From Argopecten irradians (lineage: Eukaryota > Mollusca > Bivalvia > Pectinida > Pectinidae), in contig NC_091140.1 in assembly GCF_041381155.1 (NCBI RefSeq), forward strand, positions 21,604,864-21,668,863: a stretch of DNA of 64,000 bases. The letters are read 5' to 3'. Position numbers and translations under genes: made by a program. The notes beneath the pieces were generated by a model. That model saw only the letters and a list, made by a program, of their open reading frames with translations, was not told the DNA's origin and did no database searches. Positions 33,403-57,727 of the stretch are shown here, piece by piece (position 1 is the first letter of the stretch; each line of letters starts with the position of its first letter).

Positions 33403-34491
33403 TTAGTCTTTTGGTTCCTCCTTGATTAACACACATTTCCATTGATGCCTGGGATCTTTTTTCGGATGACTGGAAACATGGTGTTGGAGTGTGACATGTT
33501 CTGACTCCATTTCTGAATCATCTGGATCAGAATCCTGTGGTTCCTCCTTGATTGAAGTAACAGACATTTCCAGTGGAACCTCATGATTTTCCTCTGATGA
33601 ATAGACACACTGTGTCGGAGTGTTACCGACAAGTTGACAGTTTCCACCGTCCATTCCCGGGTTTTCTGACGGCCATTTTGATTGTGTCTCCCCCACATTG
33701 TCCCACGGCGGCTCCTCCTTGATCACTACACCTGTTAAATTTTCACCTGGTGTTTGATTACCATTACTTTCATCATTGTCATTAACACTAGAACCTTGAT
33801 GATAGGAGAATTGGTTTTCACTTTGGTCTCCTTCCTTCTTAAATTGGGCTTTAAGAAAAGTACATGGTTTTTCTTCCTGATCTAACATTCTCTTTCTGCA
33901 TATCAGAGTTTTTCTAGTTGAAGTAGATATGGGATAAATTAACATTGGAGATTTACCATACGGCAACATTAATCCTGATGGTACAAGACCTACTGGTGTA
34001 GGTTGTGTGTTAACTCCAGAGTTATCTTTCCTTGGTGTGTCAGTGTAGTTAGACATGTTGTCCTTGATGTCACCTGTCACTTTTTCAAATGCTACAGGTA
34101 CTACAGGTATGAGATGAATGGGTGATTTACATTTTTGGATCACAGCTGGTTTAGGCTGTGTGGACGAAGTAGACAGTAAACTGGACATACTGGTATTGAG
34201 CTGTTTGTTCTCATAGTTACTCAGAAACTGGCCTTGGTTATCAATTGGTGTAGCACAATTCATAACAATTTTTAAACCTGATTCAGTGGTAACAAATTGA
34301 AGTCCTGATGCTGGTTTTGAATTCTGTGTTTTGGAATTACTTTCAAATGTGTCACCACTTCCATAAATCCCTCTCTTGATCTCGTTGGCGTTTTTGTCGT
34401 GAACTTCGTCTTGGCTTGTAGCAGCATTCTCAGCTTCTTCTTTCTCAGTCTTCATTTGAGTCAAACGTCGTTTCTCATAATCAGCTATAAT
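33403..34491 (-). CDS. Gene A exon 2: IKEEP tail exon
   Basis: It encodes 362 residues starting IIADYEKRRLTQMK. It includes a PTPVGL...KSPMLIYPISTS segment shared with gene B, then three IKEEP sites, and ends VLIKEEPKD. No folded domain is recognised and most of it looks disordered. The first part (ADYEKRRLTQMKTEKEEAEN) may be a short coiled coil. Confidence 0.8.
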   Translation of the reverse strand: MIADYEKRRLTQMKTEKEEAENAATSQDEVHDKNANEIKRGIYGSGDTFESNSKTQNSKPASGLQFVTTESGLKIVMNCATPIDNQGQFLSNYENKQLNTSMSSLLSTSSTQPKPAVIQKCKSPIHLIPVVPVAFEKVTGDIKDNMSNYTDTPRKDNSGVNTQPTPVGLVPSGLMLPYGKSPMLIYPISTSTRKTLICRKRMLDQEEKPCTFLKAQFKKEGDQSENQFSYHQGSSVNDNDESNGNQTPGENLTGVVIKEEPPWDNVGETQSKWPSENPGMDGGNCQLVGNTPTQCVYSSEENHEVPLEMSVTSIKEEPQDSDPDDSEMESEHVTLQHHVSSHPKKDPRHQWKCVLIKEEPKD

Positions 34492-35846
34492 CTGGAAGGA
34501 AAGAAAAGATCTCATTAATGGACATAACAGTATTTTAACTAATACGCTGGTTTTGAGATTCCAAAACGACGTAGACAAAGAACGATTTACATACAGTCGC
34601 TTAGTCCACCTCTTGATGCATTGTTATGTCATATCTTGGAGTGTATTTTGTGATGTCATAATCACCATAGGTGGGACTAAATTGACCGTAAATAGTACTT
34701 TTACCCACATACTATAGATTTGGATATCAAAACCCCAATAATAATAGCACCTCCCTTTCTCAAAAACGTTTTGTATTTTACACATTTATTCTCATGGTGA
34801 CCTATTGCGTTAGTCTTTTGTCCGAGTTCGAAAATCAGCTTGATTCCACAGTAATTTACAGAGTTATTGCCCTTTGTACTAATGATTATTATTGGACCTT
34901 GTAAATATGATATCTTGAGTAGATATGCACTTAGCTTCATAAAACTTTGTATTTAGACTAAAATTGGAAAGATTTGATGAGTTCAAAGATTGGCCTGATT
35001 AGATCGTAACTTACTGAGAATAATAGTAATTATGATTGGACCTTGTGAACATGATAACTTAGTAAATATGCACCCAGCCTAATTTCAACTTTGTATGTAG
35101 ACTAACATTGGAAAGATCTCTGACGAGTTAAAAAATCAGCTTGATTTGACCCTTACTTAATTACAGAGTTATTGCCCTTTGCTAGGGATTGAACTAGTAC
35201 TCTGGACCTGTAGATTACTCAAGTTTGAAGCTCAGCTGATCGAGCTAAAGAGATTAGTTCTCTCTAGCCGAGTATATTGCAACTAGTATTCACCTAGCAA
35301 CTATTGTAGCCGAAAATATATCACCTTCTGACTGACATTTCAGCGCTAGAACAGTATAGCTAGTATTCACCAGGGTTACAGTACAGAAAGGCAGTTTCCC
35401 TGTTTACAACTTACTCTAGCATTTTCTCGTTTTATAAATGCTGTCCTGGGTTTTGGAGTGGACGATTTACTACCATACATTTCCCCCTGTGTATCTGTTC
35501 TCGTGGAGTCCTTATTAGTTGATAAAACTTTACAACAATGAATGGTCGGAATAGCGTCTCTGTTGACAGTTCTTCTTTTAGTTTGAGGATGTCCCATCGA
35601 CTCCATTATTGCATACCGCATCGGGAAACATTCCTTGGTAAAATGGCTCGAGCATAGTTTTGAGTTTGTAGTAGGGCCAGCCCATTTGGCTCTCGTTGTC
35701 TTCACAAAATTCGTCCATATCCTACAAAGTGCTGGATTATCCAATGGGAACTTGTGGAGGGACACATGCTCGTCACTAGGCCCGTTCCCGCAGCCAAATG
35801 CTACACATTTATGTCTTTTACCAGATCTAGATCTCGCAGTCGACAT
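33403..35846 (-). CDS. Gene A: THAP zinc-finger protein with IKEEP tail
   Basis: This is a candidate DNA-binding nuclear protein of about 506 residues in two exons, 35846-35415 and 34491-33403, joined in phase 0 (AGA|GTAAGT to TTCCAG|ATT). Residues 14-68 form a C2CH THAP finger (C14, C19, C65, H68; W44 and a DAIPTI box follow the family pattern). The tail is Ser/Thr/Asn-rich and acidic, with IKEEP motifs at about residues 401, 458 and 500. These fit the SUMO consensus (hydrophobic-K-x-E). The start is ATG 35846; no earlier in-frame ATG is visible. The tail is related to genes B and C, and 33507-33804 is nearly identical to gene B. The exact target and function are unknown. Confidence 0.8.
34790..35170. 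repeat. Dispersed repeat in gene A intron
   Basis: GGTGACCTATTGCGTTAGTC, GAGTTATTGCCCTTTG and GGACCTTGTGAACATGATAA match the element at 25447-25990. Two internal copies about 180 bp apart are seen. Confidence 0.7.
35175..35370 (-). mobile_element. tRNA-derived SINE in gene A intron
   Basis: On the minus strand TCTTTAGCTCGATCAGCTGAG is a box A-like motif, and AGTACTAGTTCAATCCCT resembles box B. It is the same family as 16500-16662. The anticodon arm is degenerate. Confidence 0.6.
35415..35846 (-). CDS. Gene A exon 1: THAP domain
   Basis: It encodes MSTARSRSGKRHKCVAFGC and on through KLCSSHF and DAIPTI, then a basic linker ending KRENAR. It contains the whole THAP finger. The donor AGA|GTAAGT lies at 35415/35414. 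The start is 254 bp from the start of gene B on the other strand. Confidence 0.85.
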
Positions 35847-36100
35847 AATTAGCAAATTAGCCTTTAATCATATCCAGTGAAAAGGAAAAATATCCGCCAG
35901 TCCTACCTACTGGGTACTCCCAAGTCGATATTCTACCAGGATCAGTAAGACGCTTGTAAACCTTTGACCTGTCATGCGACCCTTCTGAGCGTTGGTATGA
36001 CGTCGATCTGTTGGTTAGTTTCGTTTTCAGTTTGAGTATCAGCTTGGATTCTGAGTTGTTGTGATAATTAGGCTTGTCCTAACGTGGCTAGTCGTAGAAA
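35847..36100. promoter_or_regulatory. Bidirectional promoter between genes A and B
   Basis: Only 254 bp separate the two divergent start codons. The interval has no clear TATA box and is less AT-rich than its surroundings. It has a CRE-like TATGACGTCG near 35996. Shared control of both genes is inferred from the geometry. Confidence 0.65.
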
Positions 36101-36788
36101 ATGGCATTCGATAGATTTACAGAACTTGATGAAAGTGATCTGAAAAGACTCTTGGAAAAAAAGGATTCAGAAAGCACAAAGAAAATAGTGAAGGCGTCTG
36201 TTGCTGTGTTGCAGAATTATTTGGAGGCAAAAGGGAAACGGTTGCAAGAGATTGAAACTGCTTCTGACGAAGAATGTGACGATATACTGCGGAAATTTTA
36301 TGCGGAGACCAGAAAGGAAGACGGAACAAGATATGCAAAGAAATCTTTGGTTTCCCTTAGATATGGTATACAGAAGCATTTTATTAGAACAAGAGAACAA
36401 GATATCATAAACGACAAGGTATATTTTAAATCCAACGAAACGTTTAAAGCAGTTTTATTAAAGCTAAAAGAGGATGGTATAGGTGAGAGTGTTCATACAG
36501 AACCAGTTACCGTAGAGGACATGGCGAAACTTTATGGTGGGCCTGCATTTGACACCCGTACTCCAGAAGGACTTCAGAGGAAAGTTATGTTTGAATGCCT
36601 CTATTACTTTTGCAGTCGTGGACGAGAAAACATACGTGGACTGAAAAAGTCTAGTTTTGTGGAAGAAGTTAATTTATCAGGTCGAAAGTATATTGCCCTA
36701 GTTAGAACTATTAAGACAAAGAAAAATGATGGAGAAGATGAAGTCGATGACATCCTCAACGAACCTATTCGAATGTATGACAGGCCAG
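36101..36788 (+). CDS. Gene B exon 1: N-terminal part of Crypton-type domain
   Basis: It starts MAFDRFTELDESDLKRLLE and has the SAM-like core-binding region of Crypton-family recombinases (DILRKFYAETRKEDGTRYAK, SLVSLRYGIQKHF). The catalytic-domain start follows (GLQRKVMFE, CSRGRENIRGL). The donor is CCAG|GTAAAA at 36788. Confidence 0.85.
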
Positions 36789-39700
36789 GTAAAATATACT
36801 GTATAAGTGCTGTCTCAGTCATCATTCAATTCACCTCTTCTATTAAACAGTCTGGCATGCAATAATATTAAACTGCGCGGTATACCTGCCTTATTTCCTA
36901 TTCTCTCCATTTAAGGCTGCGCTCATGAATACTTAAGTATATCTGGGCTCACGTTACCCATTCACATTTTCGTTAATAACGAATCGATCTGGCTATTTGC
37001 TAAAATAAATTCATCCTAATTAGCAAAAAATGCTTAAGTTTTACTTCACACACCCGATATTCAATCACACGGACACGAGCTTCAAATATAGTTTTTTTCT
37101 ATCACATTAGTTTCATAGCAAGTCTAAAACAGTTGATAAATTAATCAGTTACTGTACCTGCATATATAATTTAATGTTGAAGGAATGTAAAGTAACATGC
37201 AATATGCACGACAGAGTATGGTTTAATGAATGATCAGGATCTTTTGTATGTGTGTACTTTTCACTTGATGCATAAAATACATTATTTGATGCCTCTTAGT
37301 AATTTAATGCTTTTCATTATGAAATGCTGTGAATGCACAATTTGCAAAATGGAATTCTTATTTACTAAAGAGAAAAAATCACTTTCGCAATTTTTGCTAA
37401 GTAAACTGGAAAATCAGTGTGAGCTCAGTATATGTACCGGTATATTGATAAGTCTCTTTTAAGGTCTAATATCATGTAAATGCCATATACCAGTAATAAA
37501 ACGGTTATCAACATGTTTTTAGGTGGATACAGTAATTTATCAACCCTTGAAAGTGATACAACCAGCCTAGTGGAGGGTAGAAAAACTATTGCAGGCAATC
37601 CAGTCTAGCAATAATATTAACATTGTGTAGCAATCAAATCACAAGATTGGTATTAAATCATGTACGGTAACCTACATTAATGTGTAGTGAACCCTTGACC
37701 TCTAGCTAGCACAGCCTTCAAATCAGACACTTGATCCCTTGAGTGGATATTTTTGACATTCCAAAATTAAACCTGACTCCTTGATATTGAAGCATGTGCA
37801 TCTATTTGTCACATGTTTTGATCCTTTAGATCTAAATTTCTTTTTAATGATGATTTGATTTCAGAAATTGCCAAAACCTAAAGGTCCACTCCAGATACCC
37901 TATCTAGTAGTTATATTGTATTATTAATTTTGCGGTGTTTTTATTTTCGCTATATTCGCAATTCCATCGAAATCTGAAAATTTTAAACACCAGCGAAATA
38001 TTTAGCACAGCGCTGAGAAGTATTGTTATCTACTAGGTGCCGTGGGTCACGTAATATCGGTGACAGTGGTGTCCATATCTCCTGTTTTTTCAATGTTTTA
38101 GCCATGTATCAAGAGACTTTATTACTGTGTATGTACATGTTTATACCTATAGACAATTGTCTGTCGACTGAGTATAAACAAGCTAAGACCGTGTAAAGCA
38201 AACAATTCATTGATAACAACTTACTACATGTATACATTAGTAGGATGTGTTTTGTTGTATCAGTTTTACTTCAGTGAATTCTTTCGAGTGAACTCACTGG
38301 CGCATGACAACAGTGTACACACAAGGCAAGATTAAAAACACATGTGTTGACAAGCGTAGTTCTGTTTCAAAGTTGATTTATCCCCTTATCAAATTATAAT
38401 GTACAATGTATATAAGGTTGAATAATACTGATAATGTCGATGTACAAGCTATCCTCGAAATATATGGAGCAGATGCACCATGAAAGTAAACCCCGACACC
38501 CGGGGCTAGTGAATTTCAGGTCAGGGGTAGTGGCTTCACAATCAGTACTACTTTACTAGCACATTTGGCGTGCCACTCATGCTTAGTGTTTACAGGCCCA
38601 ATTTAAGATGCTCAGAGTTCTTGGTTATTAAAAAAACAGTTAACAAAAAAAAAAATCATATTGACATTGGTAACCTTAAATGAAGTAAAAGTTCAACATA
38701 GTGTGTTATACTAGCATATCACAGTAAAACTGACTTATTTGGCTTCCTTAGAACTGTTTTTTTTTTTTTTGATATGTGAGCAAATTTTAATGGACTCTTA
38801 GACTTTTTTTGCCTTTGATCTATTTGACCTGTAACAGGAGAGGAGAAAATGTAGCGGCTAGACCGGGATTCGAACCCGGGACCCTCAGAACACTAGCTGA
38901 GTGCTCTACTGACTGAGCTACCTAGCCTGGTCACCGATGATCGACCCAGTCCAATCCCACTACACTCCTCCCTCCTTTCTCGAAGTCTTCGCCCTCAAAG
39001 ACACACGAGACCCTTCCAAACACCACCAATGTGAGTTATTTATTTGGGCGCCAATTCTGTAACAGGAGAGGAGAAAATGTAGCGGCCAGACCGGGATTCG
39101 AACCCGGGACCCTCCTAACACTAACTGAGTGCTCTATCGACTGAGCTACCTGGTCACCGATGATCAACTCAGTCCAATCCTGTTACAGACCTTTGTGATA
39201 TTGAGTGAAGATCTACTGTTAAACACATGTAATATGAGGTTAGAAACCCTTCATTGCATGATGCTACATGCCAGATATCATATCTCTGGACCCCTTAGTT
39301 ACATTCATTAAGTTCAGTAAGTTAGTTACATTCATTAAGTTCAGTAAGTTATATAAAATTTTGGCTTATTTGACCCCAGAAATATTAATTAAATTAATGG
39401 TAAGACATTTATTTGCACAAACTTGGTAGTCTTAAATATCTCAACATGACTCAGGCCTAATATCAGATCACTATTTAGATTCTAGAAAAAAAATAGGCGG
39501 CTTTGACTCATGGCTATCCTTGAATGAAGGTCAAGGTTATTCATTTGAACAAATTTTAAAGCACTTTCACTCAGCATGATATGCTACAAGCCTTATATCA
39601 GGTCTCTAGTCCTCTTATATTGAGAAGAAGTTGTTTATAGATTCCTGTTTGAACTTTAAGACCTTGAATGAACTTTGAAGGTCAAGGTCATTCATACAAA

Positions 39701-42700
39701 CAAGGTTTGTCACTTTTCCTGATAGCGTGCTATGCTTCTGACCTTGAAAGTGTATCAAGGATAGATTCATTGTCGGCGTCAGCGTCTGCGTCCAGGAAAC
39801 GGTTTCCATGCGATAACTTAAGTATTTATTGTCCGATTTCAAACAAATTTGGTATATTGCTTTATATCAATGAGGTTCCGATGAGTTTGATAAAGGTCAA
39901 ATTCTGTCAATATTTGCAAGAGTTACGTGACTTTAAAATCGTCAAAACAGATAAATCCCTCGTTTCCGCTCGATAACATAAATATTTATCGTCCAATTTC
40001 AACCAAATTTTATAAATTGTTATTAATATCAATGAGATCTAGGATGAGTTCAATAATCAAGAGTTACAGACTTGATAACTTCATATAATTATTAACAATA
40101 TCTTCAACTGAAGATAACTATTTTTTGTGATGCTGTGCAGGCGACACATCCACTTCCGTGGAATTCTTGTTATTTAGATACATGTATTTGTTATGGTGTA
40201 TATAAGGAGCAAATAAAAAGGCTTTCATCAAAATGATGAAATCATCACAGTTGTTGTATAAAAACATAACCAATCATTGATTTATCATTGTAAGCTATCA
40301 ACTGATCAATTTTAGATAAAACATTTTATAAAAAATTTCATGAAAAATCTTAACAAAAATAATTTTATATAAAATCATTATCTGTACAGATTTTTTTTTC
40401 AGGTAATCCTAACTGTCCTGTGGCATCCTTCAAAAAGTATGTGAGTAAACTTCATACAGGAATTGAAAGTTTCTGGCAGAGGCCAAGAAAGAATGTTTGT
40501 GAAGAGGACCCCACGTGGTACGAGGGTATTCCTGTGGGGAAAAATGCAATTTACTCTTACATGAAGAAACTTAGCCAAGACTTTCATCTGAGTAAAAGAT
40601 ACACAAACTTGTCTGTCAGGGCCACTAGTATCGCAAAACTGGATCATTATGGGGTGGAGACCCGTCACGTGTTGGGTGTATCAGGTCATCACAGGCCTGA
40701 ACCCACAACAAAGAACCACACCTTCTGGCTTAGTGACGAGGGGAGATGTTTAATGTCAGATATCCTCAGTGGACAGGTGGATCCAAAAGCAAAGTGTGTG
40801 AAAAGGTGTTCAGCAGCTGCAGCAGGTGGAACAAGTTCATATGAAACGATGGCAAATTCACATGTCGAGGAACAGAACAATATCCATATCAACAGACTAC
40901 CATTGCAAAGTGTGCCCGAGCTACCCTACTCTAATAGTACAAATGTAAGTTTGACATCCAACATGAAATTAAAAGTGAAAATTTAGAAATAGCTTGTAAT
41001 ATTATTTAATTAATTTAATTTATTGAATTAATATGTACAAAGTGCAAAGTATTTATTGAAGTTTAAGTTTTTTGATGACATTATAAAGATGAATTTACAA
41101 CAACAAACAAGTGAAAGACTCCGTGTGTAAATATATGTAACAATGAAAGTTCATCTCACTGTTTTGCCACTTGGTGTAGTGATACTCAACTACTGTACTG
41201 TAATTAAGATGGCACATGTTACAGGAATTATAACATTGATTTTTTTTTTATCTTTTTATAACTGTTCAGGGAGTGGTGATATGATATGTACCATATAGTA
41301 TCATTTAAATGTAAGTTGATAACGTTTGGGACTCTACAAAATTGCTTTATATTGTGTTTTCTTTCTTCAGGGTTTTGCTGAGAAACAGTTGCCCATGATG
41401 ACTGAAACAAAGATGGACAGAATGGAGGAAAGGGAGAATATTGAGGCGCTGTTAAAGAAGGCTGTACTGAGTCTTTGTCAGGAAAAATATCAAAATCCGA
41501 TCGAGGTTGATGCGTTAATCTGTGTAACTTTGACACCTACCAACAACCATGTGGTGAAAATTCATGAGAAAGTTGGGAATTGGAGTGACAAGACTTCAGG
41601 TATGTCATTTGAAGGTGAACATGGTGACATACCATCAGCTATGTACTCCACAGAGCAAAACCCTAAACCAAAATCGAATGGAAGAAATGAAAATGTACTG
41701 ATGACAAATGGCACTGGTGATTCAGAAACCATGGTACAGAAACAGAATACTGAAATCTTACCTTCAAGTAGTGCTGGTGTACTGGGTTCAGAAGCCATGG
41801 TACAGACTACTAAAAGCTTACCTTCAAGTAGCGCTGGTATACTGGGTTCAGAAGCCATTGTGCAGAATACTAAAAGCTTACCTTCAAGTAGCGCTGGTGT
41901 ACTGGGTTCAGAAACCATGGTACAGAATACTAAAATCTTACCTTTACATGTAAGTAGCGCTGGTGTACTAGGTTCAGAAACAGTCTCAAAAAGGACACCA
42001 CATCTTAGTTACCAAGACCTGGGACAGATTGTTCATGACAAAGACAGCATGTACTACAGTACTGATGCATCAAGAAAAGATAATTCTGTGGGTCACATAC
42101 AACCTACACCAGTAGGATTATTGGTACCATGCAATAAATCTCCAATGCTAGTTTATCCGATATCTACTTCAAATGGAAAAACTCTGATATGCAGAAAGAG
42201 AAAGTTAGATCAACCCGAGATACAACATCACGAGGAAGGATCTCAGAATTATCTATCGATCATAGAGCAACGGGAAAAGCATTTGTCATATCATCGAGGT
42301 TCTAGTGTTAATAACAATGATGAAAGTAATGGTAATCAAACACCAGGTGAAAATTTAACAGGTGTAGTGATCAAGGAGGAGCCGCCGTGGGACAGTGTGG
42401 GGGAGACACAATCAAAATGGCCGTCAGAAAACCCGGGAATGGACGGTGGAAACTGTGAACTTGTCGGTAACACTCCGACACAGTGTGTCTATTCATCAGA
42501 GGGAAATCATGAGGTTCCACTGGAAATGTCTGTTACTTCAATCAAGGAGGAACCACAGGATTCTGATCCAGATGATTCAGAAATGGCGATTGATAGAGAG
42601 TTGTCCAACAGTGACAGTGTTAGACATTCAGATAATATGTTCACAAATACAAGCCGAAACCTGTCTGAAATTACCAGTAATAGCAATAGAGCAGAACATT

Positions 42701-42786
42701 TTAGCAGTGAAAGTAAAGACATTCAATTAGGTATCAGAGCTGCTCTAGGTTATCCTGAACCAATATATCAGTTTCCATTTGTATGA
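36101..42786 (+). CDS. Gene B: Crypton-derived recombinase-fold protein with SLCQEKY module and IKEEP tail
   Basis: About 881 residues in three exons: 36101-36788, 40403-40944 and 41371-42786, all phases consistent (1, then 0). Exons 1-2 encode a DUF3504-like domain (KIAA1958/ZMYM kin) derived from Crypton tyrosine recombinases: GLQRKVMFECLYYFCSRGRE carries the first Arg region (R173-R179), NPNCPVASFKKYVSKLH follows, then NLSVRATS (R302) and SGHH (323-326). The His of the HxxR motif is Leu here and no Tyr sits at the usual place after SGHH, so recombinase activity is unlikely. Exon 3 adds a SLCQEKY module (about 425-480), four 20-residue repeats and IKEEP sites at about 744 and 801. It is probably a nuclear DNA- or chromatin-binding factor (inferred). 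Confidence 0.8.
36789..40402 (+). other. Gene B intron 1 (3.6 kb)
   Basis: It contains two tRNA-derived repeats (38829-39187) and dispersed repeats at about 39490-40165 with GGTCAAGGTCATTCAT words and a GACACATCCACTTCCGTGGA end. 36900-38800 is unique-looking AT-rich sequence with no recognised exon. Confidence 0.7.
38829..39187 (-). mobile_element. Two tRNA-derived repeat copies
   Basis: On the minus strand each copy carries GTAGCTCAGTCAGTAGAGC (box A) and GGTCCCGGGTTCGAATCCCG (box B). Copy 1 (about 38857-38940) even has a near-complete acceptor stem (GGCTAGG with TCTAGCC). The anticodon loop has eight bases and copy 2 has a broken anticodon stem, so neither looks like a working tRNA. Both begin AACAGGAGAGGAGAAAATGT. 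The pair is bounded by TGTAACAGGA and TCCTGTTACA, so the ends are inverted. Confidence 0.65.
40403..40944 (+). CDS. Gene B exon 2: C-terminal part of Crypton-type domain
   Basis: It encodes NPNCPVASFKKYVSKLH, VGKNAIYSYMKKLSQ, SVRATSIAKLDHYGV and VLGVSGHHRPE, the DUF3504 signature order. It then runs into a Ser/Asn-rich linker. The donor is AAT|GTAAGT at 40944. Confidence 0.85.
41371..42786 (+). CDS. Gene B exon 3: SLCQEKY module, repeats and IKEEP tail
   Basis: It encodes ALLKKAVLSLCQEKY and VDALICVTLTPT, matching the start of gene C. Next come the 20-residue repeats, then a PTPVGL...SPMLVYPISTS segment shared with gene A, the 298-bp tract shared with gene A, and the C terminus PIYQFPFV. Confidence 0.85.
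   Translation, partial: GFAEKQLPMMTETKMDRMEERENIEALLKKAVLSLCQEKYQNPIEVDALICVTLTPTNNHVVKIHEKVGNWSDKTSGMSFEGEHGDIPSAMYSTEQNPKPKSNGRNENVLMTNGTGDSETMVQKQNTEILPSSSAGVLGSEAMVQTTKSLPSSSAGILGSEAIVQNTKSLPSSSAGVLGSETMVQNTKILPLHVSSAGVLGSETVSKRTPHLSYQDLGQIVHDKDSMYYSTDASRKDNSVGHIQPTPVGLLVPCNKSPMLVYPISTSNGKTLICRKRKLDQPEIQHHEEGSQNYLSIIEQREKHLSYHRGSSVNNNDESNGNQTPGENLTGVVIKEEPPWDSVGETQSKWPSENPGMDGGNCELVGNTPTQCVYSSEGNHEVPLEMSVTSIKEEPQDSDPDDSEMAIDRELSNSDSVRHSDNMFTNTSRNLSEITSNSNRAEHFSSESKDIQLGIRAALGYPEPIYQFPFV
41722..41985 (+). repeat. In-frame 60-bp repeats in gene B
   Basis: Four copies of a unit like SSSAGVLGSEAMVQNTKSLP. The period is 60 bp, with the last copy slightly altered (LPLHVSSAGVLGSE). The repeats are Ser-rich and probably disordered. 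Length variation between individuals is likely. Confidence 0.9.
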
Positions 42787-43389
42787 TTTTGTGGAGAGAT
42801 GTTCAGTTTCTAATGATAGGAAAAGTCTTCAGACATCCAGATGACATTACATTTCTTATGGTGTCTTTTCCAAAACTGCAAGTTTCTGTAGAATATCTAT
42901 GACTGTACATGTTTCAGGATACTTTGATCCGTCCACACCTTTGATAATACCATGAATTCTAACTTTACTATAAATACATATTGTTATTACTGCATGTATT
43001 CGCTGTAATTAGTGCCCCTCCTCCCCCCCATAAGCTCCCCTCCACTCATATGGAGAAGGAGTTGAAGTTATGTACATGCCACCCCAACCCCATGAATTTA
43101 AAAAGGTTTTACGACTTGTGATATAAATGCGTCTCAAAGCAAGGAAGGCATATACATGTTTACTAAGCCATGACAACACAGAGTGTTAAAACGTAGGAAA
43201 TTATTCTTAGAATTAATTATAACGTCCACAATGTAAGTTTTGGTTCCCTATTATGCGCCCTCTCCCTTTGTTACAATATAGGTGCCCTGGGTGCTAACAA
43301 TGGCGAATGCAGTATTATTATGTTGATTATTTTTTGTTGATTTTAAAAATTTTAAAATACAGTTGTATACATACAGTATTATTATCTTT
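42787..43389 (+). other. Gene B 3' flank
   Basis: Likely 3' UTR followed by AT-rich sequence. A C-rich stretch (CCCCTCCTCCCCCCCATAAG) lies near 43014. No coding signal is seen. Confidence 0.45.
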
Positions 43390-44215
43390 TCTTCTCATAA
43401 GCTCACCTGGTCCAGGGGAACAAGGTGAGCATATGCCATACCATGGTGTCTGCCATCCATCCATATGTCATCAATCAACGACTTCTTTGTAACTGTTGGT
43501 TGGAGTTTAACCAAATTTAACTGGTAGAACAAGATGGCGGACAGGCCGCCATCTTGGATTTTGATAGTTAAAGTTAGTTACTGCTATTTCTCAGAAAGTG
43601 TTGAAGGGATTCTTCTCAAATTTAACATGTAGGTTCCCAAAGGGTCCTTATTATGCATATTGCATTTTTGGACCGATCGATCAACAAGATGGCCGACAAG
43701 TCGCCATCTTGGATTTTGACAAGTGAAGTTTGTTACCGCTATTTCTCAAGAAGTACTGAAGGGAGCTATCTCTAATTTTATGTGCATGGTCCCCTAGGTC
43801 CCTGGTTATGCATATTGCATTTTGGTACCGATCGGTGAACAAGATGGCCGACAGGACACCATCTTGGATTTTGACAATTTTGTTACCGCTATTTCTCAGA
43901 AAGTACTGAAGGCATCTGTGTCAAATTGCATGTGCAGGTTCCCCTATGGGTTTAGTTGTGCATATTGTATTTTGGGACTGACTGATCGATCATAAAGATT
44001 GCCGACAGGTAGCCATCTTGGATTTTGATAATTGAAGTTTGTTACTATTATATATCTCAGAAAGTACTCAAAGGATCTTTCTCAAATTTCATATGTTGCT
44101 ATACGTAGTAAAAGTTTGTAAAGCAGAGAAGAGATCCCTCTTTCGTTTGTTTGACATAGATCATTCTTTGGTGGGCGCCAAGATCCCTCTGGGATCTCTT
44201 GTTTAGGTTGGTCTG
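43390..44215. repeat. Dispersed repeat with four 156-bp copies bearing an AAGATGGC palindrome
   Basis: It starts near AGCTCACCTGGTCC. AACAAGATGGC...GCCATCTTGGATTTTGA occurs near 43528, 43684, 43838 and (decayed) 43993, spaced about 155 bp. The first copy reads as a near-perfect hairpin. The element ends CCCTCTGGGATCTCTTGTTT. Confidence 0.8.
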
Positions 44216-45061
44216 AAAAACCAAGATGGCTGCCACAAATGCCATCTTGAAAAACACACTCAGGCCAGTTTTAGCGTTGCAATTTAACTGAAAATGTCAA
44301 AGATGTGAACAAAAGACAGCTCATTAAATGTTATTTGCATGCTAGCTGTCATGACCACTTTATACGACTCCCATTTTGAAAAATAATTTTTTCAGTACAG
44401 AACCTATTCCAAGATCAGGACCTATAGTCATCATGCTTTATTTGTAATCGTGTGCTGTCTGCTGTTTATAAACTTTTCATTCAACCGACTTCTCCTCAAT
44501 AAACAAAAGGTCTAGGGTACTGATGTTTGATTTTTAGCAAGCTGGAATGAAAGGCTACCAAGATGCCTGACACCTAAAAATAAAGGCATTGCACGTGGCA
44601 TGCTGGGATATCAAATTAACTTAAAATAAAGGTCAAGCTCATAACAAAGTTGATTTGATTATTTTTAAAGAATGGAAAAATATCAAATTTATTATCTTGC
44701 GACTACTACCATTCTCTATACATTCATTATATGATCACCAGGTTGCAAGTGAGCAATTTAGGTCCATTGAGCTCTTGTTGAGAAGTCATTTAATGAAAAG
44801 TTTATGCACAGCCAACAATGAAGTGCAGAGAAAGGCGACTATACGTGAAGGTTATATCAACCTTTCAGGTCAAATGACCCAATAAACTACCACTACATGC
44901 TGAAGGATTGAAACAGAGAGATAACTCAGATAGATCATTCATTGACCATGTAAGAATAAGATTCTGTTGATTGAATAAAGATGGCTGGCACTGCACCATG
45001 GGATATTAGCTTATCTGCTTTGGCAAGGCAGAGAAATAATAAAGAAATATTTCAATTACTG
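44216..45061. other. Non-coding stretch
   Basis: Nothing is recognised apart from another AAGATGGC(T/C)G hairpin-like pair (44222-44250) and a 'GAGATAACTCAGATAGATCA' fragment of the gagttatctccctt class near 44920. Confidence 0.4.
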
Positions 45062-46553
45062 GAATGACGAAACGCTTTATTGTACATTAACAGTTATAAC
45101 ACAATACATAGAAAAGCCGTAACTTATGGATAAGCAGATGTAGACTTACAGTTTTGGTATGTGATATTTAAGGAACAAAGTAGATTCTAGGGGTTGCTGC
45201 TTTTATTGAAGTTTCATTTAAGGATTAAATTACAATTTTGAAATTAATGTAATGACAGTTTGGCGACATCAGATGATATCAATATATTTATCATTACTAC
45301 ACTATGAGCACTTTCCTGTGTTGTGATTATAGCTTTAATACCAGATTCTTTAATCCAAGTAACAAATACCAGGTAGGAGAAAACAAATCTGTCCTGAAAG
45401 CAATTTTTCAATATGATTTTGTAATATGCAAATGTGATAACAAACATACCATTTTAAAATCAAAAGTCTCAACATATTAAGAAATAAATGATTTCCAAAT
45501 GTTTGAATTCTGCAAACATTTTTGGTGAGAAAAATATGCTCTTTGTATATTTACAATGGTAAGTTTTAAGTACATGTTCATGTATCTAACAAAAAATACC
45601 ACAAATAATATTTACTACTGTTGTAACTTTGAATTGATAAAAATAAATTACATTGTAAATAACAGCATAATAACTCCATGTAAATCAAAACATAAGTAAT
45701 ATTAAAATAAAAATGTTTTTAAAAAATAGTTCAAAATAGAGAAAATAAGGAGCTTATACATATAGATAATTGACATTTCCAATGCCATTATGATATTCAC
45801 ATACTTTTACAAGTACTAAAATCAACATTCTAGGAAACCTTTCAATTAAACTATTATTATCACTATTAAACTTTGGTAAGTGGTTTGAAGAAGCTGGCAA
45901 ATTATATGGCATAGATATATTTTACAAGTGGAAGGAAGTAGAATTTTGAATATTTTCAAATGAAACATTTCATAAACTTTGCAGATTAAACTTCAAACAT
46001 TACTACATAGCTGAAACACAGTTTTATCCAACAAATGCAAACATGATGCGTTTAAAATGAATCATTCAAAACCGAAATTGTACAAATCTTGGTATTTTAT
46101 GAATATATACATGTATATATATAAATCAATACAAGAATCATTGCAACAACTTTTACAGTAAAAAGAAGGGAATGGCAAAGTTGCAAAGACACTGTCAAAT
46201 AACATTTTATCATATAAGCACAAAGGCACAGCAAAAGTAGTTTTAAAATTGAATGACGATATATGTCATGGTACATCGATTCCATCTACAAATGTAGCGG
46301 TAACTAAGAGAACCAAGGCATGTCCTCTCAACTTCCAAGATTGTTTATATTTGTCAACTAGGATTTAAAAAAGATTCTGGCAAGCAAGAGCATATAGCCT
46401 CCTTTTCAGTATTGAGTGTGTACGGGAAATAATCAACCCTTTTTATCATCTTTTTCATCATCCATTCTGATCGTATTTTTCAGGAAAAAAAAACATCCAT
46501 AAGACAATTAAACACATCACTACTTCTGTCATTCCATATAGGTATCAATCCGA

Positions 46554-46944
46554 TCTATCAGAGTTCATTCCCTTTGTTTCACTCTGTCCAATCAGAACTC
46601 CTCTGATGTAAAACATGACCTCAGATGTATTAGGTGTAAGAATATGAAAGAAATTGTTTTCTTCGCTTGAAAACTTAATTATGCCAGAAAATGAACAGCT
46701 ATTAAAATGTTGAACTTAAAGCCTTATTTCAAGAAATTAAATGTAATTTTTCTCCTTGGAGATGTACAACACACAGCATCCATGAACAAACGCTTTTCAA
46801 GGGGTAGTGTCCTCAATGGCAACCTTGTATCACATCTGAGCTTCATGTACAACCAATTGAGTTACAATCGATGAGCTCCCATAGTGCACTATAGATCTAG
46901 CTGTCAGCTAATGGAGTGAAACGAAGGGAAGTAACTCTGATAGA
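46554..46944. mobile_element. MITE of the gagttatctccctt class, 391 bp
   Basis: The left end TCTATCAGAGTTCATTCCC and the right end GGGAAGTAACTCTGATAGA are complementary. The pairing extends to GTTTCACTC/GAGTGAAAC, giving about 30-bp terminal repeats. The interior shows no open frame of interest. Confidence 0.8.
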
Positions 46945-48515
46945 TAAAAATAGTATCCATGTAAATCTTAAAACTACTATTGCCAATGCCTTTTGAGGGC
47001 AACTAAGCTTGCTATAAATGTTCCCAAAAATAAACTTTAAAGACCATACCATAGTTGGTCTTACAACAATATCAGTATTACTGTACTGATATCTATATAG
47101 ATATATTCATCAATATATAGCAGTCAAAATAAAAACAATGTAATATATAATAAAAAAAAAATGGATTGCCTTTCATAATGTCCATGATGATGCTCAGGAT
47201 GATCTCTTGTAAAGAAAACAAGTCAAATATTCAACTTTCCAATATAATTGTTTGTTGGCTAGAAGTCCACGTTTGGAACAGAATTTGTATCCAGAATTAT
47301 GAAAAAGTTCTACATATTATTAAAGCAAAATTTGTACACAGTTTGAATCAGTGGGTGTGTTTTTTCCAGTAAATGCAATACCGGTAATTGTCTAGTTCAA
47401 AATATGACACAAATTTTTTTTATTTTTAATGATCCTTTTTAGTTCTACCATGTCAATTCAAGAATATATTGACAATTAAGAAACATTAACACTTTAATTA
47501 AGAACTTCAGATTGAAGCGGTATCCCTTGCCAGTGTCTCAAATTATTTGTCTTATGTTAATATCATAAATTAAAGTAAATAGAACTTTACAAGAGTACTT
47601 CTAAAATTATTGAAATCCATCAAAGATATATTTATATATATATCAAAATGCATGGTACTCTGAGCTTTTAGTCCTGAAATGTATACAAAGACAAAATATG
47701 TTTTTTTCATTCGTATAAGAAAGAACCTAGTTGAGCCTTACTGCCGTTCTATCATAAGATTGCACGATTGTGCTACAGTACTAGTGTATCGACTCACTGT
47801 AGCTATATATATATATTATAGTAGATTACATGGCTTCATGTTACAGGTGAAGTGTCTATATAACACGCATTGTGATTGGCCGAGTTGATCTAAAATAGTA
47901 AATAGAGGATATTTATCAAGGTAATATATTATAACTACCTTTGCAGCCTTTCATCTTATTTAATAATACTATCAAGTGAAAAGTTCATACATAATCAAAG
48001 ATCTGTACATTTAAGAATATATGTTGAAAGATTCACAGAGAGACAGAAATCTTTTAGGATACAGTGGACACTTGTTAAAATATCACTGTATAACATTTTT
48101 TAAGTAAATAAAAAATTCATCAAATACATACATATTTTTGAAGTAATCATATTTAGCATATTTCGCACTGGATAATTTGCACTAAAATATTATTGTGCTT
48201 TATCGTGTTTTCTACATAATGCTAGTTTACCTACATGTATCATTACATGTGAATTCATCACTGTGCTAATCTGCGCAAAATTAAAACTTGGTTGCACAAA
48301 AAAATAAGAATGTTAACAGAATTACAGTACACATTTACATGTAATTAACAATAAACAGATACACCCAACGTTAACAGATGACTCAAATTTTCAGCTTGTA
48401 AACATTCAAATTGTATCGATTAGTAACAATCTTAACTTATCAGACAAAGACTATTTGCTTTCTACACCAAATTTACATTTGAAAGTTTCTGTATATAATG
48501 TGTGATCCGCCATTT

Positions 48516-48595
48516 TGTCATCCTCGATACTTCAGGGGTTCCTATCACTTACAATCTCTTAATTGGAACTCATGGAGTATCAAGGATGCCATTTT
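48516..48595. repeat. Small palindromic dispersed repeat
   Basis: CATCCTCGATACTTCAGGGG...GGAGTATCAAGGATG folds on itself. Related 'CATCCTTGATATTACAGGGG' sequence occurs at 30104 and, inverted, near 1276-1310. Confidence 0.6.
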
Positions 48596-48990
48596 GTAGG
48601 AGATATATAATAATAAGGCTAATTCAATGCCTGGATAAATTTGGAGTGGTAAACCATACTACATGTACTGTATAGCTGCTTCCATCATGAAAATTTGATC
48701 CACAAAATATTGAGAAGTGATTGAATTATTATCATATATACCTGAAAGCCTGATCGAAAATTTTGAACTCAAAATTTTTTTTTTTTTAAATGTGAAAATT
48801 TTGACCCACAAAAATATGCAGCTATACTATACAGTATGTAAAAGTAACTGATTTTTATGAACAGTTTCACTTTTAGATGAGTGATGCAGGTGATCTATTA
48901 TATGTATGAGCTAGCTAGGACACAATATCTTGTTTACTCCGACTAAAGTTTAACAAGTATATGAGACTACGGTGTTGCTACACTGTACCA

Positions 48991-49392
48991 TCACTGTGTG
49001 ACAGGAGTCACATTGTGTTCCTTGTTCAAATGTTCATCTCTCTCTGCTTCGCTGTAGAAGAAATTGTAACAGACTGGACATTGTGTAGTATGATAGGTGA
49101 GCATTCCTTCAGAGAACTTGGGTACCTCTAGAGTTCGTAGTTCTCCAGTGGTCCCTGAACCAGTAGGTGTGAACAATTCTTTCTCACATACCTTGTGTCG
49201 TTCACGCATGTGCTTTCGTTTGGACATTTCATCACCGAAATATCCATTACAGAGTGGGCATTTAACGAATTCACTGTACTGTTCTTCCTCTTCATGGCGG
49301 TCACGCTCGGCACGTGATGAGAATTCGCTTCCACAAATGCTACAAGCAAACAACAGAAGATTTGATGACGATGATGAAGAGGACTTGGTAGG
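48991..49392 (-). CDS. Gene C exon 2: C2H2 zinc fingers
   Basis: It encodes a poly-Ser stretch, then FACSICGSEFSSRAERDRH, CPLCNGYF...HMRERH and CPVCYNFF...HLNKEH, ending NVTPVTQ. The frame is open upstream to 49629, so the true acceptor could be earlier. Confidence 0.75.
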   Translation of the reverse strand, partial: PTKSSSSSSSNLLLFACSICGSEFSSRAERDRHEEEEQYSEFVKCPLCNGYFGDEMSKRKHMRERHKVCEKELFTPTGSGTTGELRTLEVPKFSEGMLTYHTTQCPVCYNFFYSEAERDEHLNKEHNVTPVTQ

Positions 49393-51301
49393 CTGGCATG
49401 TAGATGTTGACTTTTGACTATCTGTTTCATATCTTGAATCCAAACCATGTCTGCATGTCAAATTTTGCATTTGGAATTTTTTGTTTAAATGTAGGTAAGT
49501 CTGAAAGTGGACGATTGTATACCTTTTTTCTTGGGCGTCTACTCTTATCTTCCACATTGTCAAGCAGTCCTCGTAATCTAGGTGAGTAAGAATCATCCTG
49601 CTCACTTCTGGGAGATTCAGAGTCATCACTTAACACATCAAAGTCAGACCCTACGTCTGCCATTTCAGTATAATTCACTGGATTTTTTCTCCCTGAAGAC
49701 AGTCTAGTTGAATATGGTCCCTTGCCTCGGTTCCTTTTTTCCAGTAAGGATCGTGTGAGCAAATCAAACTTTCGATTAGCTTTTTCTGTAGGCGTCATTG
49801 ACGTTCCTACTCTCATTGCAATTGATGTTTCTATTGGACTAGTGACTGAAACATTTTCTCCCTGCTGGCTTTTGTCTCCAGAAACATCTCCAGGAAACAG
49901 ATCTTGGAATGATACGAATGGAAGTCTGTAGACCAGGGAGTTATCCTGATCCTCTCCCATATTGGACTGATTCATCGAACTCGGTGTACCATTTTTATTT
50001 CCAATACTGACCTTCTCTGTCGGCACACTACTTTTGTAAGCTTCAGCTAAGCTTTTTCCTTTCAGAATCTTTAAAAGGATGGAATTTTTGGTTGTTTCTG
50101 ATATCGGCCCTGAATCAGAATTTTGTCTCTGGTCATATTGTGATGTATCTATATCGGTGTCAATCTCCATCTCTGGTTCCCCAACATCAGAGTCCTGTGG
50201 CTCTTCTTTGATTGATGTGACCGACATCTCCATGGGATCATCGTTACTTTCTGCTTGTGACGGATAAAACTGAGCTGGAGTATTACATCCACTGGAACTT
50301 TGACTATTCTCAGCCTCACTGTTGTTTCCCTCTTCGTTTTCTGTCGGCCATTTTGGCTGCGAGTCCTCGTCATTATTATTCCACACTGGTTCCTCTTTGA
50401 TTACAATTCCACCGGGTAACGTCTCACTGATTATTTGATTACTATTGCTTTCATCATTATTTACACTAGATTCCTTCTCCTTGTCGGAATCTTTCTGTTT
50501 ATATATTCTATCTTCACTTTGCTCTTTTATGGCGGTATACTCCTGTGACGACTCATCATTCTGAGTTACTGGAGTGGATCTGTCTACCTCACTAGAATCC
50601 ATTTTTATGTTCTGACCTACAATGGCATCAGAAACTTTTTGACTATTTGCTGTCAGTACTGGTGGAACATTCCGTGTTGACGCTGTGCTCATGGGGATCA
50701 TCAGTCCAGACAAAATGGATGCTACAGATGCTGGTTCCTTGGGTTGTGTTGGTGGGGCTGGGTTCTCCTCCTCCTTTGACCTCAATGCTTCCTTACTGAC
50801 AGGGCTGAGATACATGTTGTCCTCCCCACATAAGGTCTGCACCAGATAGGGGTATTTTTTAACTGACGTGTCACTTGTCAAACCTTCTGACCCTGAAGCA
50901 TTTATGCTGATATCCGACAACTTTTCAGCACTATCCTCTGCCTGCCAGCCTCCCTCATGAGCTGGTATCATCTTATTTGCATAAGATAAGTCCGGTGTCA
51001 TCTTTCTTTTTCGTTTTGATTTTGGACCCATAGACCAGATGTTTGATACCTTACAGATGTTTTGGTCCCCATTCGTATTGTGAGGCGAAATAAATCCTGT
51101 ATTTCTTTGTCTAAAGTTCCCAAGCGTCTCATGAATTTTCACCACATGGTTGTCTGTAGGCGTCAGTGCTACACAAATCAACGCATCCACTTCTATAGGA
51201 TTCTTGTACTTCTCCTGACAGAGGCTCAGGACAGCTGCTCTAAGCACTGATGCAATTCTTTCCCTTTCCTTCATTCTGGCTACTTTTGTCTTGTTCACCA
51301 T
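48991..51301 (-). CDS. Gene C: SLCQEKY/IKEEP protein with C2H2 zinc fingers
   Basis: Model: exon 51301-49523 and exon 49392-48991, joined in phase 0 (AAAAAG|GTATAC to TGCCAG|CCT), about 726 residues. It starts MVNKTKVARMKERERI and shares VLSLCQEKY and VDALICVALTPT with gene B (residues about 15-55). IKEEP sites fall at about residues 301 and 364 within a tail related to genes A and B. The C-terminal exon has one degenerate finger (CSICGSEF...H without its last His) and two full C2H2 fingers (CPLC-x12-H-x4-H and CPVC-x12-H-x4-H). The 130-bp intron is a best guess: without a splice the two frames do not connect. It is probably a nuclear factor. Confidence 0.65.
49523..51301 (-). CDS. Gene C main coding exon
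   Basis: 593 codons from ATG 51301. It carries the SLCQEKY module, the Ser/Asp-rich tail with IKEEP sites, a KNSILLKILKGKSLAEAYK segment, and an acidic-then-basic end (SDDSESPRSEQ, SRRPRKK). The acceptor TTTTGCAG at 51330 lies 29 bp before the ATG, and the 28 bases between have stops in all frames, so upstream exons must be non-coding. Confidence 0.8.
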
Positions 51302-51417: not shown

Positions 51418-54400
51418 AACCAGTTGGTACAAGTCCAAAGTGACCCTTGGTCCACATTTTAACTACCAGCTGGTACTAGTCCACAATGGCTTCTGGTTCC
51501 CATCTTACTTCCAGCTCGTACTAGTCCACAGTGACCCCTGGTCCCCATCTTAACTACCAGCTGGTACAAGTCCACAATGACCCCTGGTCCCCATCTTAAC
51601 TACCAGCTGGTACTAGTCCACAATGACCCCTGGTCCCCATCTTAACTACCAGCTGGTACTAGTCCACAGTGACCCCTGGTCACCATCTTAACTCCCAGCT
51701 GTTACTAGTCCACAATGACCTCTGGTCCCCATCTTAACAACCAGCTGGTACTTGTCCACAGTGACCCCTTGTCCTCATCTTAACTACCAGCTGGTACTAG
51801 ACCACAGTGACCCCTGGTCCACATCTTAACTTCCACCTGGTCCACATCTTACTACTAGCTGGTACTAGTCCACAATGACCCCTGGTCCACATCTTAACTA
51901 CCAGCTGGTACTAGTCCACAGTGACCCCTGCTCCCAATCTTACATGAAACTACCAGCTGGTACTAGTCCACAGTGACCCCTGGTTCACATCTTAGCTACC
52001 CACTGGTACTAGTCCACAGTGACCACTGGTCCACATCCTTAAACTACCAGTTGGTACAAGTCCACAATGTCACCTGGTCTACAATTTAACTACCAGCTGG
52101 TACTAGTCCACAGTGACCCCTGGTCCCCAACATAACTACCAGCTGGTACAAGTCCACAATGACCCCTGGTCCCCATCTTAACTACCAGCTGGTATAAGTC
52201 CACAATGACCCCTGGTCCCCTACTTAACTACCAGCTAATACAAGTCCACAATGACCTCTGTTCACCATCTTAACTACCAGCTGGTACAAGTCCACAATAA
52301 CCCCTGGTCACCATCGTAACTACCAGTTGGTACTAGTCCACAGTGACCCCTGGTCCCCATCTTAACTACCAGCTGGTACTAGTCCACAGTGACCCCTGGT
52401 CCCCATCTTAACTACCAGCTGGTACAAGTCCACAGTGACCCCTGGTCCCCATCTTAACTACCAGCTGGTACTAGTCCACAGTGACCCCTGGTCCCCATCT
52501 TAACTACCAGCTGGTACAAGTCCACAGTGACCTCTGTTCACCATCTTAACTACCAGCTGGTACAAGTCCACAGTGACCCCTGTTCACCATCTTAACTACC
52601 AGCTGGTACTAGTCCACAGTGACCCCTGGTCCCCATCTTAACTACCAGCTGGTACAAGTCCACAGTGACCCCTGGTCCCCATCTTAACTACCAGCTGGTA
52701 CAAGTCCACAATGACCCCTGGTCCCCATCTTAACTACCAGCTGGTACTAGTCCACAGTGACCCCTGGTCCCCATCTTAACTACCAGCTGGTACTAGTCCA
52801 CAGTGACCCCTGGTCCCCATCTTAACTACCAGCTGGTACAAGTCCACAGTGACCTCTGTTCACCATCTAAACTACCAGCTGGTACTAGCCTCCAAAGACC
52901 CTTGGTCCCCATCTTAACTTCCAGCTGGTACGTCCACAGACCCGTCACAGTACCCTGGTAACACCACTGGTACAAGTCCACAGTGACCCCTGGTCCCCAT
53001 CTTAACTACCAGCTGGTACTAGTCCACAGTGACCCCTGGTCCCCATCTTAACTACCAGCTGGTACAAGTCCACAATGACCCCTGGTTCACCATCTTAACT
53101 ACCAGCTGGTACAAGTCCACAGTGACCCCTGGTCCCCATCTTAACTACCAGCTGGTACAAGTCCACAATGACCCCTGGTCCCCATCTTAACTACCAGCTG
53201 GTACTAGTCCACAGTGACCCCTGGTCCCCATCTTAACTAACAGCTGGTACAAGTCCACAGTGACCCCTGTTCCCATCTTAACTACCAGCTGGTACAAGTC
53301 CACAATGACCCCTGGTCCCCTACTTAACTACCAGCTGGTACAAGTCCACAGTGACCCCTGGTTCCCATCTTAACTACCAGCTGGTACAAGTCCACAGTGA
53401 CCCCTGGTCCCCATCGTAACTACCAGCTGGTACTAGTCCAGTAATGACCCCTGGTCCCCATCTTAAACTACCAGCTGGTAACAAGTCCACAGTGACCCCT
53501 GGTCCCCATCTTAACTACCATGACCCCTGGCTGGTACAAGTCCACAATGACCCCTGGTTCCCATCTTAACTACCAGCTGGTACAAGTCCACAGTGACCCC
53601 TGGTCCCCATCTTAACTACCAGCTGGTACAAGTCCACAGTGACCCCTGGTCCCCATCTTAACTACCAGCTGGTACAAGTCCACAGTGACCCCTGTCCCCA
53701 TCTTTAACTACCAGCTGGTACTAGTCCACAGTGACCCCTGGTCCCCATCTTAACTACCAGCTGGTACTAGTCCACAATGACCCCTGGTCCCCATCTTAAC
53801 TACCAGCTGGTACTAGTCCACAATGACCCCTGGTCCCCATCTTAACTACCAGCTGGTACAAGTCCACAGTGACCCCTGGTCCCCATCTTAACTACCAGCT
53901 GGTACAAGTCCACAGTGACCCCTGGTCCCCATCTTAACTACCAGCTGGTACTAGTCCACAGTGACCCCTGGTCCCCATCTTAACTACCAGCTGGTACTAG
54001 TCCACAGTGACCCCTGGTCCCCATCTTAACTACCAGCTGGTACAAGTCCACAGTGACCCCTGGTCCCCATCTTAACTACCAGCTGGTACTAGTCCACAAT
54101 GACCCCTGGTCCCCATCTTAACTACCAGCTGGTACTAGTCCACAATGACCCCTGGTCCCCATCTTAACTACCAGTTGGTACAAGTCCACAGTGACCCCTG
54201 GTCCCCATTTAACTACCAGCTGGTACAAGTCCACAGTGACCCCTGGTCCCCATCTTAACTACCAGCTGGTACTAGTCCACAGTGACCCCTGGTCCCCATC
54301 TTAACTACCAGCTGGTACAAGTCCACAATGACCCCTGGTCCCCATCTTAACTACCAGTTGGTACAAGTCCACAATGACCCCTGTTCCCATCTTAACTACC

Positions 54401-57400: not shown

Positions 57401-57727
57401 TACCAGCTGGTACAGTCCACAATGACCTCCTGGTCACCACTTAACTACCAGCTGGTACTAGTCCCACATGACCCCTGGTCCCCATCTTAACTACCAGCTG
57501 GTACTAGTCCACTATTGAACCCCTGGTCCCCATCTTAACTACCAGCTGGTACAAGTCCACAGTGACCCCTGGTCCCCATCTTAACTACCAGTTGGTACTA
57601 GTCCACAATGACCCTGGTCCCCATGTTAACTACCAGCTGGTACAAGTCCACAATGACCTCTGTTCACCATGTTCTTAAACCAGTTGGTACTAGTCCACAT
57701 TGACCTCTGTGGTCACCATCTTAGGGT
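51418..57727. repeat. 46-bp minisatellite, about 137 copies, 6.3 kb
   Basis: The unit reads ACTACCAGCTGGTACTAGTC then CACAGTGACCCCTGGTCCCC then ATCTTA. It varies at a few fixed spots: CTAGTCC/CAAGTCC, CAGTGACC/CAATGACC, GGTCCCC/GTTCACC. Each unit holds the palindrome ACCAGCTGGT (E-box CAGCTG) and, on the other strand, GGGTCA. Edge copies are the most diverged. Long open frames inside are products of the repeat, since 46 is not a multiple of three. Confidence 0.97.

Follow-up and report, generated by a model that had tools for sequence, protein, structure and literature searches.

The window analyzed here is a 64,000-nucleotide (nt) stretch of contig NC_091140.1 of the bay scallop Argopecten irradians. 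It contains three genes, A, B, and C, whose predicted products share a tail marked by IKEEP motifs. The gene models were built from open frames together with splice signals and phases, and their exon joins are predicted. Gene A (33403-35846, reverse strand) has two exons, starts at an ATG at 35846, and encodes 506 amino acids; gene B (36101-42786, forward strand) has three exons, starts at an ATG at 36101, and encodes 881 amino acids in the spliced model; gene C (49427-51301, reverse strand) reads from an ATG at 51301 in one frame of 624 amino acids and combines an SLCQEKY/VDALICV module with the IKEEP tail. Genes A and B lie head to head and point in opposite directions, with 254 bp (35847-36100) between their start codons that presumably serve as a shared promoter. 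A proposal that this promoter is CpG rich was dropped, as its CpG ratio is equaled in 176 of 1275 window stretches of the same size. On balance we favor, with modest confidence, a reading of the locus as a case of transposase capture in which two transposon-derived DNA-binding heads have been joined to a likely SUMO-regulated tail.

The first exon of gene A (35415-35846, reverse strand), which runs from the ATG to the donor AGA/GTAAGT, encodes a THAP zinc finger (Pfam match at about 35538-35807). The THAP profile PF05485 is matched with an expect value (E) of 1.8e-15 and 57.9 bits (cutoff, 23.9), and comparison with solved structures retrieved THAP1 (2jtg; E=2.3e-12) as well as a THAP2 structure. 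THAP domains bear zinc ligands in the pattern C-x(2-4)-C ... C-x2-H, which by eye is that of gene A, where the finger is intact; the profile match and the ligands together identify gene A as encoding a THAP domain protein. In the genome (846 Mb in 1508 contigs), the head has 32 matches, the top-scoring one elsewhere being 52% identical. Close relatives on C14 and C205 belong to elements that align at 87-93% in four blocks totaling about 4.7 kb, as expected of a mobile element. A related THAP exon is followed by a weak match to a Mutator-type transposase (E=0.0017 and 17.8 bits for PF20700, whose cutoff is 26.5), and we therefore call the relative of this head only a THAP-bearing mobile element. 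Exon 2 of gene A (33403-34491, reverse strand) opens with 142 residues for which the rest of the genome offers no match with E of 1 or less, followed by the IKEEP tail; the SLCQEKY module was not found in gene A.

Gene B carries a Crypton recombinase head that is divided between exon 1 (36101-36788, forward strand), with the N-terminal part comprising a QRICH1 domain and the start of DUF3504, and exon 2 (40403-40944, forward strand), with the C-terminal part. Exon 2 ends either at the donor AAT/GTAAGT or, if read through, at a stop codon at 40984-40986. Exon 3 (41371-42786, forward strand) encodes the SLCQEKY module, a coding minisatellite (60-bp units, 3.9 copies, 41742-41979), and the IKEEP tail, and it stops where the frame of gene C goes on. 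When exons 1 and 2 were joined and extended by the first part of exon 3, the resulting query matched DUF3504 across the exon 1-2 join (E=1.2e-12, 48.6 bits; cutoff, 29.7) and the QRICH1 domain (E=7e-8); exon 2 alone gave 29.5 bits for DUF3504. The head found no match in the PDB by sequence at E up to 1. With 150 of 307 candidates scored, exon 1 has at least 144 genomic matches with E of 0.001 or less, a count to which one copy can contribute several matches. Five pairs of Crypton copies, from two groups, align at 97-98%, and one copy (L079) has an intron at the same position as gene B. Some copies have stops elsewhere and others are open through exon 2. In line with the proposal, made from the window alone, that both heads come from transposon lineages, each has repeated, mobile-looking relatives in this genome. 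The nearest relatives of exon 1 among the matches listed lie on C4 and are 61% and 54% identical to it; both contain stops, and exon 1 of gene B is open. These two copies (L076 and L077, at 13.87 Mb) are about 93% identical to each other, a retroelement follows one of them, and no exon 2 match was found in the 6 kb examined for each. At a further locus (L078; C205:39500-48500), a Crypton copy with a broken frame and a THAP element face each other within 8 kb, and no other close THAP-Crypton pair occurs among the matches listed.

We scanned 24 Crypton loci (L022-L044 and L078) for the catalytic boxes. The HxxR box is visible in 20, of which 19 keep the histidine and 17 the tyrosine, and the loci that lack one or the other of these residues have broken frames. 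Gene B has leucine in place of the former and histidine in place of the latter (LSVR and NHTFW versus HCIR and SYSER or HYSSK in the genomic copies) and retains both catalytic arginines, including the one before AT. It thus lacks the intact R-H-R-Y set of an active Crypton transposon, and its profile match together with the lost tyrosine and histidine marks it as a Crypton-derived DUF3504 gene. On account of the two replacements, the protein is unlikely to recombine DNA; the head may retain DNA binding. Nonsynonymous differences per site (pN) are well below synonymous ones (pS) in all the comparisons made of the head with its relatives. The first intron of gene B contains two tRNA-like sequences with odd anticodons (38854-39155), which lie in a repeated unit and look like a tRNA-derived short interspersed element, and a dispersed repeat (40000-40187), for which scoring 40 of 1086 candidates gave at least 61 matches.

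The SLCQEKY/VDALICV module was said to be common to genes B and C, and the comparison bears this out: the copies in B (41395-41583, forward strand) and C (51113-51301, reverse strand) are 71% identical (E=4.5e-24). Two queries agree on six copies in the genome, all on C7, the chromosome of the window; a match on C5 at E=0.35 was left out of the count. The module part of the B and C exons matches no Pfam family at E up to 1. A profile of the six modules retrieved a single PDB match (E=0.39), taken as chance, and gave 37 pattern matches in viral contigs, none of which was confirmed. AlphaFold2 modeling of the module from the two window sequences gave a mean predicted local distance difference test score of 61.6, a quality insufficient for structural comparison.

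The four other module genes (L011-L014), of which about 3.1 kb each was examined, with at least L011, L012, and L014 running off its end, all have C-x2-C...H finger-like motifs by eye in the frame of the module. Among the matches listed, none of them has a THAP or Crypton match within 100 kb (the nearest Crypton is about 104 kb away). On the basis of these family members, gene C looks like the bearer of the older layout and genes A and B look derived. The psiKxEP motif is present in five of the six module genes, L014 having IKEEN by eye. Beside gene C, on its downstream side, C2H2 fingers are encoded at 48991-49344 on the reverse strand (zf-C2H2_4, 29.5 bits with a cutoff of 27; zf-C2H2, 22.7 bits, below its cutoff of 25.2); none were found in the exons of genes A or B. 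The alignment of gene B with gene C begins just before the C start codon and lasts until B ends, past which the C frame continues. Just upstream of the main frame of gene C is a candidate splice acceptor (first exon base, 51329; reverse strand). Also just upstream of its module exon lies a minisatellite (51419-57723) of 46-bp units in about 130 copies, with a G+C content of about 0.52 and a strong strand skew.

The joins of the THAP and Crypton heads to the tail are predicted from splice signals. Splice signals and phases are compatible from exon 1 to exon 2 of gene A and through all three exons of gene B. The donor of gene A, scoring 7/9, is the sole site in its exon 1 to score at least 7/9, and by pyrimidine content its exon 2 acceptor is among the highest 0.3% of the window's YAG sites. 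The second donor of gene B scores 8/9, the highest in its exon, and the exon 3 acceptor is in the top 1.1%. Furthermore, the codons before the exon 3 ATG of gene B are open, in frame with exon 2, and match the bases before the ATG of gene C. The latter contain an in-frame stop, and the arrangement looks as though a head had been spliced in front of a C-like gene.

Several observations pull the other way. The exon 2 acceptor of gene B is ordinary (top 10%), and the first-exon donors of both A and B score 7/9; sites of at least 7 have a frequency of 2.5 per kb on each strand. When unspliced, the Crypton frame of B runs on for 13 codons beyond the donor before it stops, and its C terminus is like that of the mobile copies (by eye, NSTNVSL versus NNCNVTI); this native-looking end and stop mean that the Crypton part could be a standalone gene or that both forms are made. 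The low nonsynonymous divergence of the B head also reflects selection inside transposons, as synonymous sites are saturated relative to its Crypton relatives. As for the family, of the four remaining module genes only L014 has a C2H2 call above the Pfam cutoff; in the other three, support for fingers is weak, L011 and L013 having calls under the cutoff and L012 none with E of 0.1 or less. The tail of C scores 82 against that of L012, a value reached by 3 of 500 shuffles and hence not clearly above them. The fingers beside gene C adjoin its tail in a different frame, so their join is putative and would take a short intron (e.g., 130 or 139 nt from AAG/GTATAC at 49522, one of many candidates) or a frame error. 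The original prediction of three different heads on a common tail is accordingly borne out only in part: the THAP head of A (PF05485) and the Crypton head of B (DUF3504) stand, and the C2H2 head of C was read from another frame.

The strongest competing explanation is that these are separate neighbors, with a Crypton gene that ends at 40986, a THAP exon left from another or degraded gene, and module and tail exons that are ordinary genes with 5' exons of their own. The read-through end of B exon 2 fits this explanation. So does the candidate acceptor preceding the ATG of the homologous exon in gene C, which suggests that exon 3 of gene B could likewise follow a noncoding exon, and exon 2 of gene A has ATG codons of its own. 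Polyadenylation signals are undecisive, since neither AATAAA nor ATTAAA occurs between the 40986 stop and exon 3 or in the 815 nt after exon 3. Set against it are the phase-matched donors and acceptors, two of the latter highly ranked (those of exon 2 in A and exon 3 in B), the open bases before the exon 3 ATG where gene C has a stop, and the intact THAP finger of A, behind which no other THAP-element coding exon was recognized in the window. We regard such a set of independent genes as unlikely, though a serious contender.

The tails of genes A and B are close relatives (E=3.6e-85 by tblastn), with an overall identity that is inflated by a homogenized stretch of about 290 nt. This tract lies at 33507-33796 (reverse strand) in A and at 42297-42586 (forward strand) in B; 286 of its 290 nt are identical, and all four differences alter an amino acid. 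Synonymous differences number 0 in 59.7 sites within the tract versus 12 in 37.2 sites in the 5' flank (Fisher P=2.6e-6). The flank is homologous yet diverged (134 of 165 nt identical), and at the 3' edge the similarity ends abruptly in unrelated sequence. Gene conversion between the inverted A and B copies best explains this pattern; a recent local duplication of the tract, which would count against the capture reading and to which the unrelated sequence at the 3' edge lends itself, is the weaker alternative. An assembly artefact, such as a collapsed or misjoined repeat, could also produce near identity with an abrupt edge, but it is very improbable given the diverged 5' flank and the individual marks of the copies, namely, a third IKEEP motif in A and the minisatellite in B. 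Outside the tract, the numbers of identical amino acids are 38 of 55 for A and B, 14 of 60 for A and C, and 17 of 55 for B and C; on these figures, A and B appear to be sisters.

The homology of the tails extends to gene C (50165-50470, reverse strand), as shown by tblastn (A versus C, E=5.9e-20) and by nucleotide alignment (A-C, E=1.6e-16; B-C, E=1.6e-14). Relatedness of the tails had been named beforehand as one of two points on which the prediction could fail, and the outcome favored it: the A and C tails reach a Smith-Waterman score of 241 against a maximum of 108 in 500 shuffles, and with IKEEP, MSVTS, and QDSD masked they still score 128 against a shuffle maximum of 72. The tail is compositionally biased, and psiKxEP is common in transcription factors, but the masked and nucleotide comparisons leave scarcely any room for chance likeness of acidic low-complexity sequence around a common SUMO motif, and the three tails, judged by these alignments, share descent. 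They are the only clear copies in the genome; a fourth match on C13 (E=0.57, with a stop) was left out of the count, and the tail exons matched SPG4 and Zein only below the respective cutoffs, which was taken as an effect of composition. The motifs, described at the outset as paired, are indeed two in exon 3 of B and two in C; gene A has three, where shuffles expect 0.04-0.06 psiKxEP motifs in each case. The third is C terminal and lies in an 84-bp stretch (33412-33495, reverse strand) similar to the segment of the second IKEEP (72%, E=3e-6). For plain psiKxE, exon 3 of B and gene C show no enrichment (P=0.11 and 0.24, respectively).

On the basis of these observations, we propose the following history. 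The ancestral state would have been a small gene family on this chromosome whose members combined psiKxEP motifs and the SLCQEKY module with fingers of the C2H2 type at the C terminus. Gene C or its ancestor would then have duplicated, and the duplicates would have lost the zinc fingers and acquired, by splicing, DNA-binding exons from two transposon lineages: B an inactivated Crypton tyrosine recombinase head and A a THAP finger related to that of the THAP-bearing mobile element. This would have left A and B divergent and head to head, with parts of their tails homogenized by gene conversion. The original idea of an exchange of DNA-binding exons thus survives in modified form: the tails are homologous, and the exchange appears asymmetric, running from an older C-like layout to A and B. 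The products would likely be nuclear DNA-binding regulators in which the choice of target falls to the head and the shared acidic tail, bearing paired IKEEP sites, acts as a SUMO-dependent effector. From domain homology, motif counts, and what is generally known of psiKxE sites, the tail probably modulates transcription, most plausibly by repression.

Genes encoding DUF3504, namely, WOC, ZMYM2/3/4, QRICH1, KCTD1, and KIAA1958, derive from Cryptons; according to the accessible part of their description, the tyrosine and second arginine are gone from every one of them, and the histidine from all except KCTD1 (PMC3212892). Gene B resembles them in its DUF3504 and QRICH1 domains, its missing tyrosine and histidine, and a Crypton head that is joined, by model, to another part, and differs in keeping the second conserved arginine, as far as that account goes (PMC3212892). 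Since its nearest relatives among the matches listed are this genome's own Crypton copies, B looks like a separate capture, one set apart from the known genes by their published description rather than by an alignment or tree. Like THAP transcription factors, gene A has a THAP finger well above the Pfam cutoff; unlike them, the IKEEP tail accompanies only one THAP exon in this genome. THAP genes are expanded in the oyster Crassostrea and others, and the portion of that literature available to us contains no THAP family with an IKEEP tail (PMC10027918).

Fusions of host and transposase sequences provide a further parallel, one example, KRABINER, having reportedly been described by Cosby et al. 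in 2021. In such genes, as represented in the accessible part of PMC12062965, a transposon DNA-binding domain is joined to a host regulatory part, as predicted here. The scallop locus differs in that the host part lies downstream of the transposon head, one tail at one locus serves heads from two unrelated transposon lineages, and A and B lack the fingers apparently typical of their family. A more ambitious version, in which the locus works as a plug-in platform with heads that are spliced to one conversion-homogenized SUMO-type tail and may continue to recognize the elements they came from, so that B silences the mobile Cryptons of this genome and A silences THAP elements as a lineage-specific counterpart of KRAB zinc-finger or KRABINER-like proteins, is conceivable but doubtful. 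F-box genes with a captured Tc1/mariner helix-turn-helix are said to be nematode genes. They too are a multigene family that gained a transposon DNA-binding domain, of one transposon type in the portion of PMC12062965 available to us, whereas here two types occur on closely related tails. Our limited literature search found no published description of the present arrangement, which is weak evidence of its absence. The arrangement appears to be a local instance of transposons supplying parts for new gene regulators.

Elsewhere in the window, 28847-30049 (forward strand) encodes exons of a LepA/GUF1-type translation factor (PF06421, E=3.9e-21; PF00679, E=1.5e-10).

Transposase capture is best described in vertebrates. 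At this scallop locus, two unrelated transposon heads have apparently been placed on the same tail within 10 kb, not far from a relative that seems to keep the older layout. The same genome contains Crypton copies that retain all four catalytic residues. If the capture reading is true, the locus would allow tests of whether captured heads still bind their parent elements and of whether a ready effector tail makes captures succeed.

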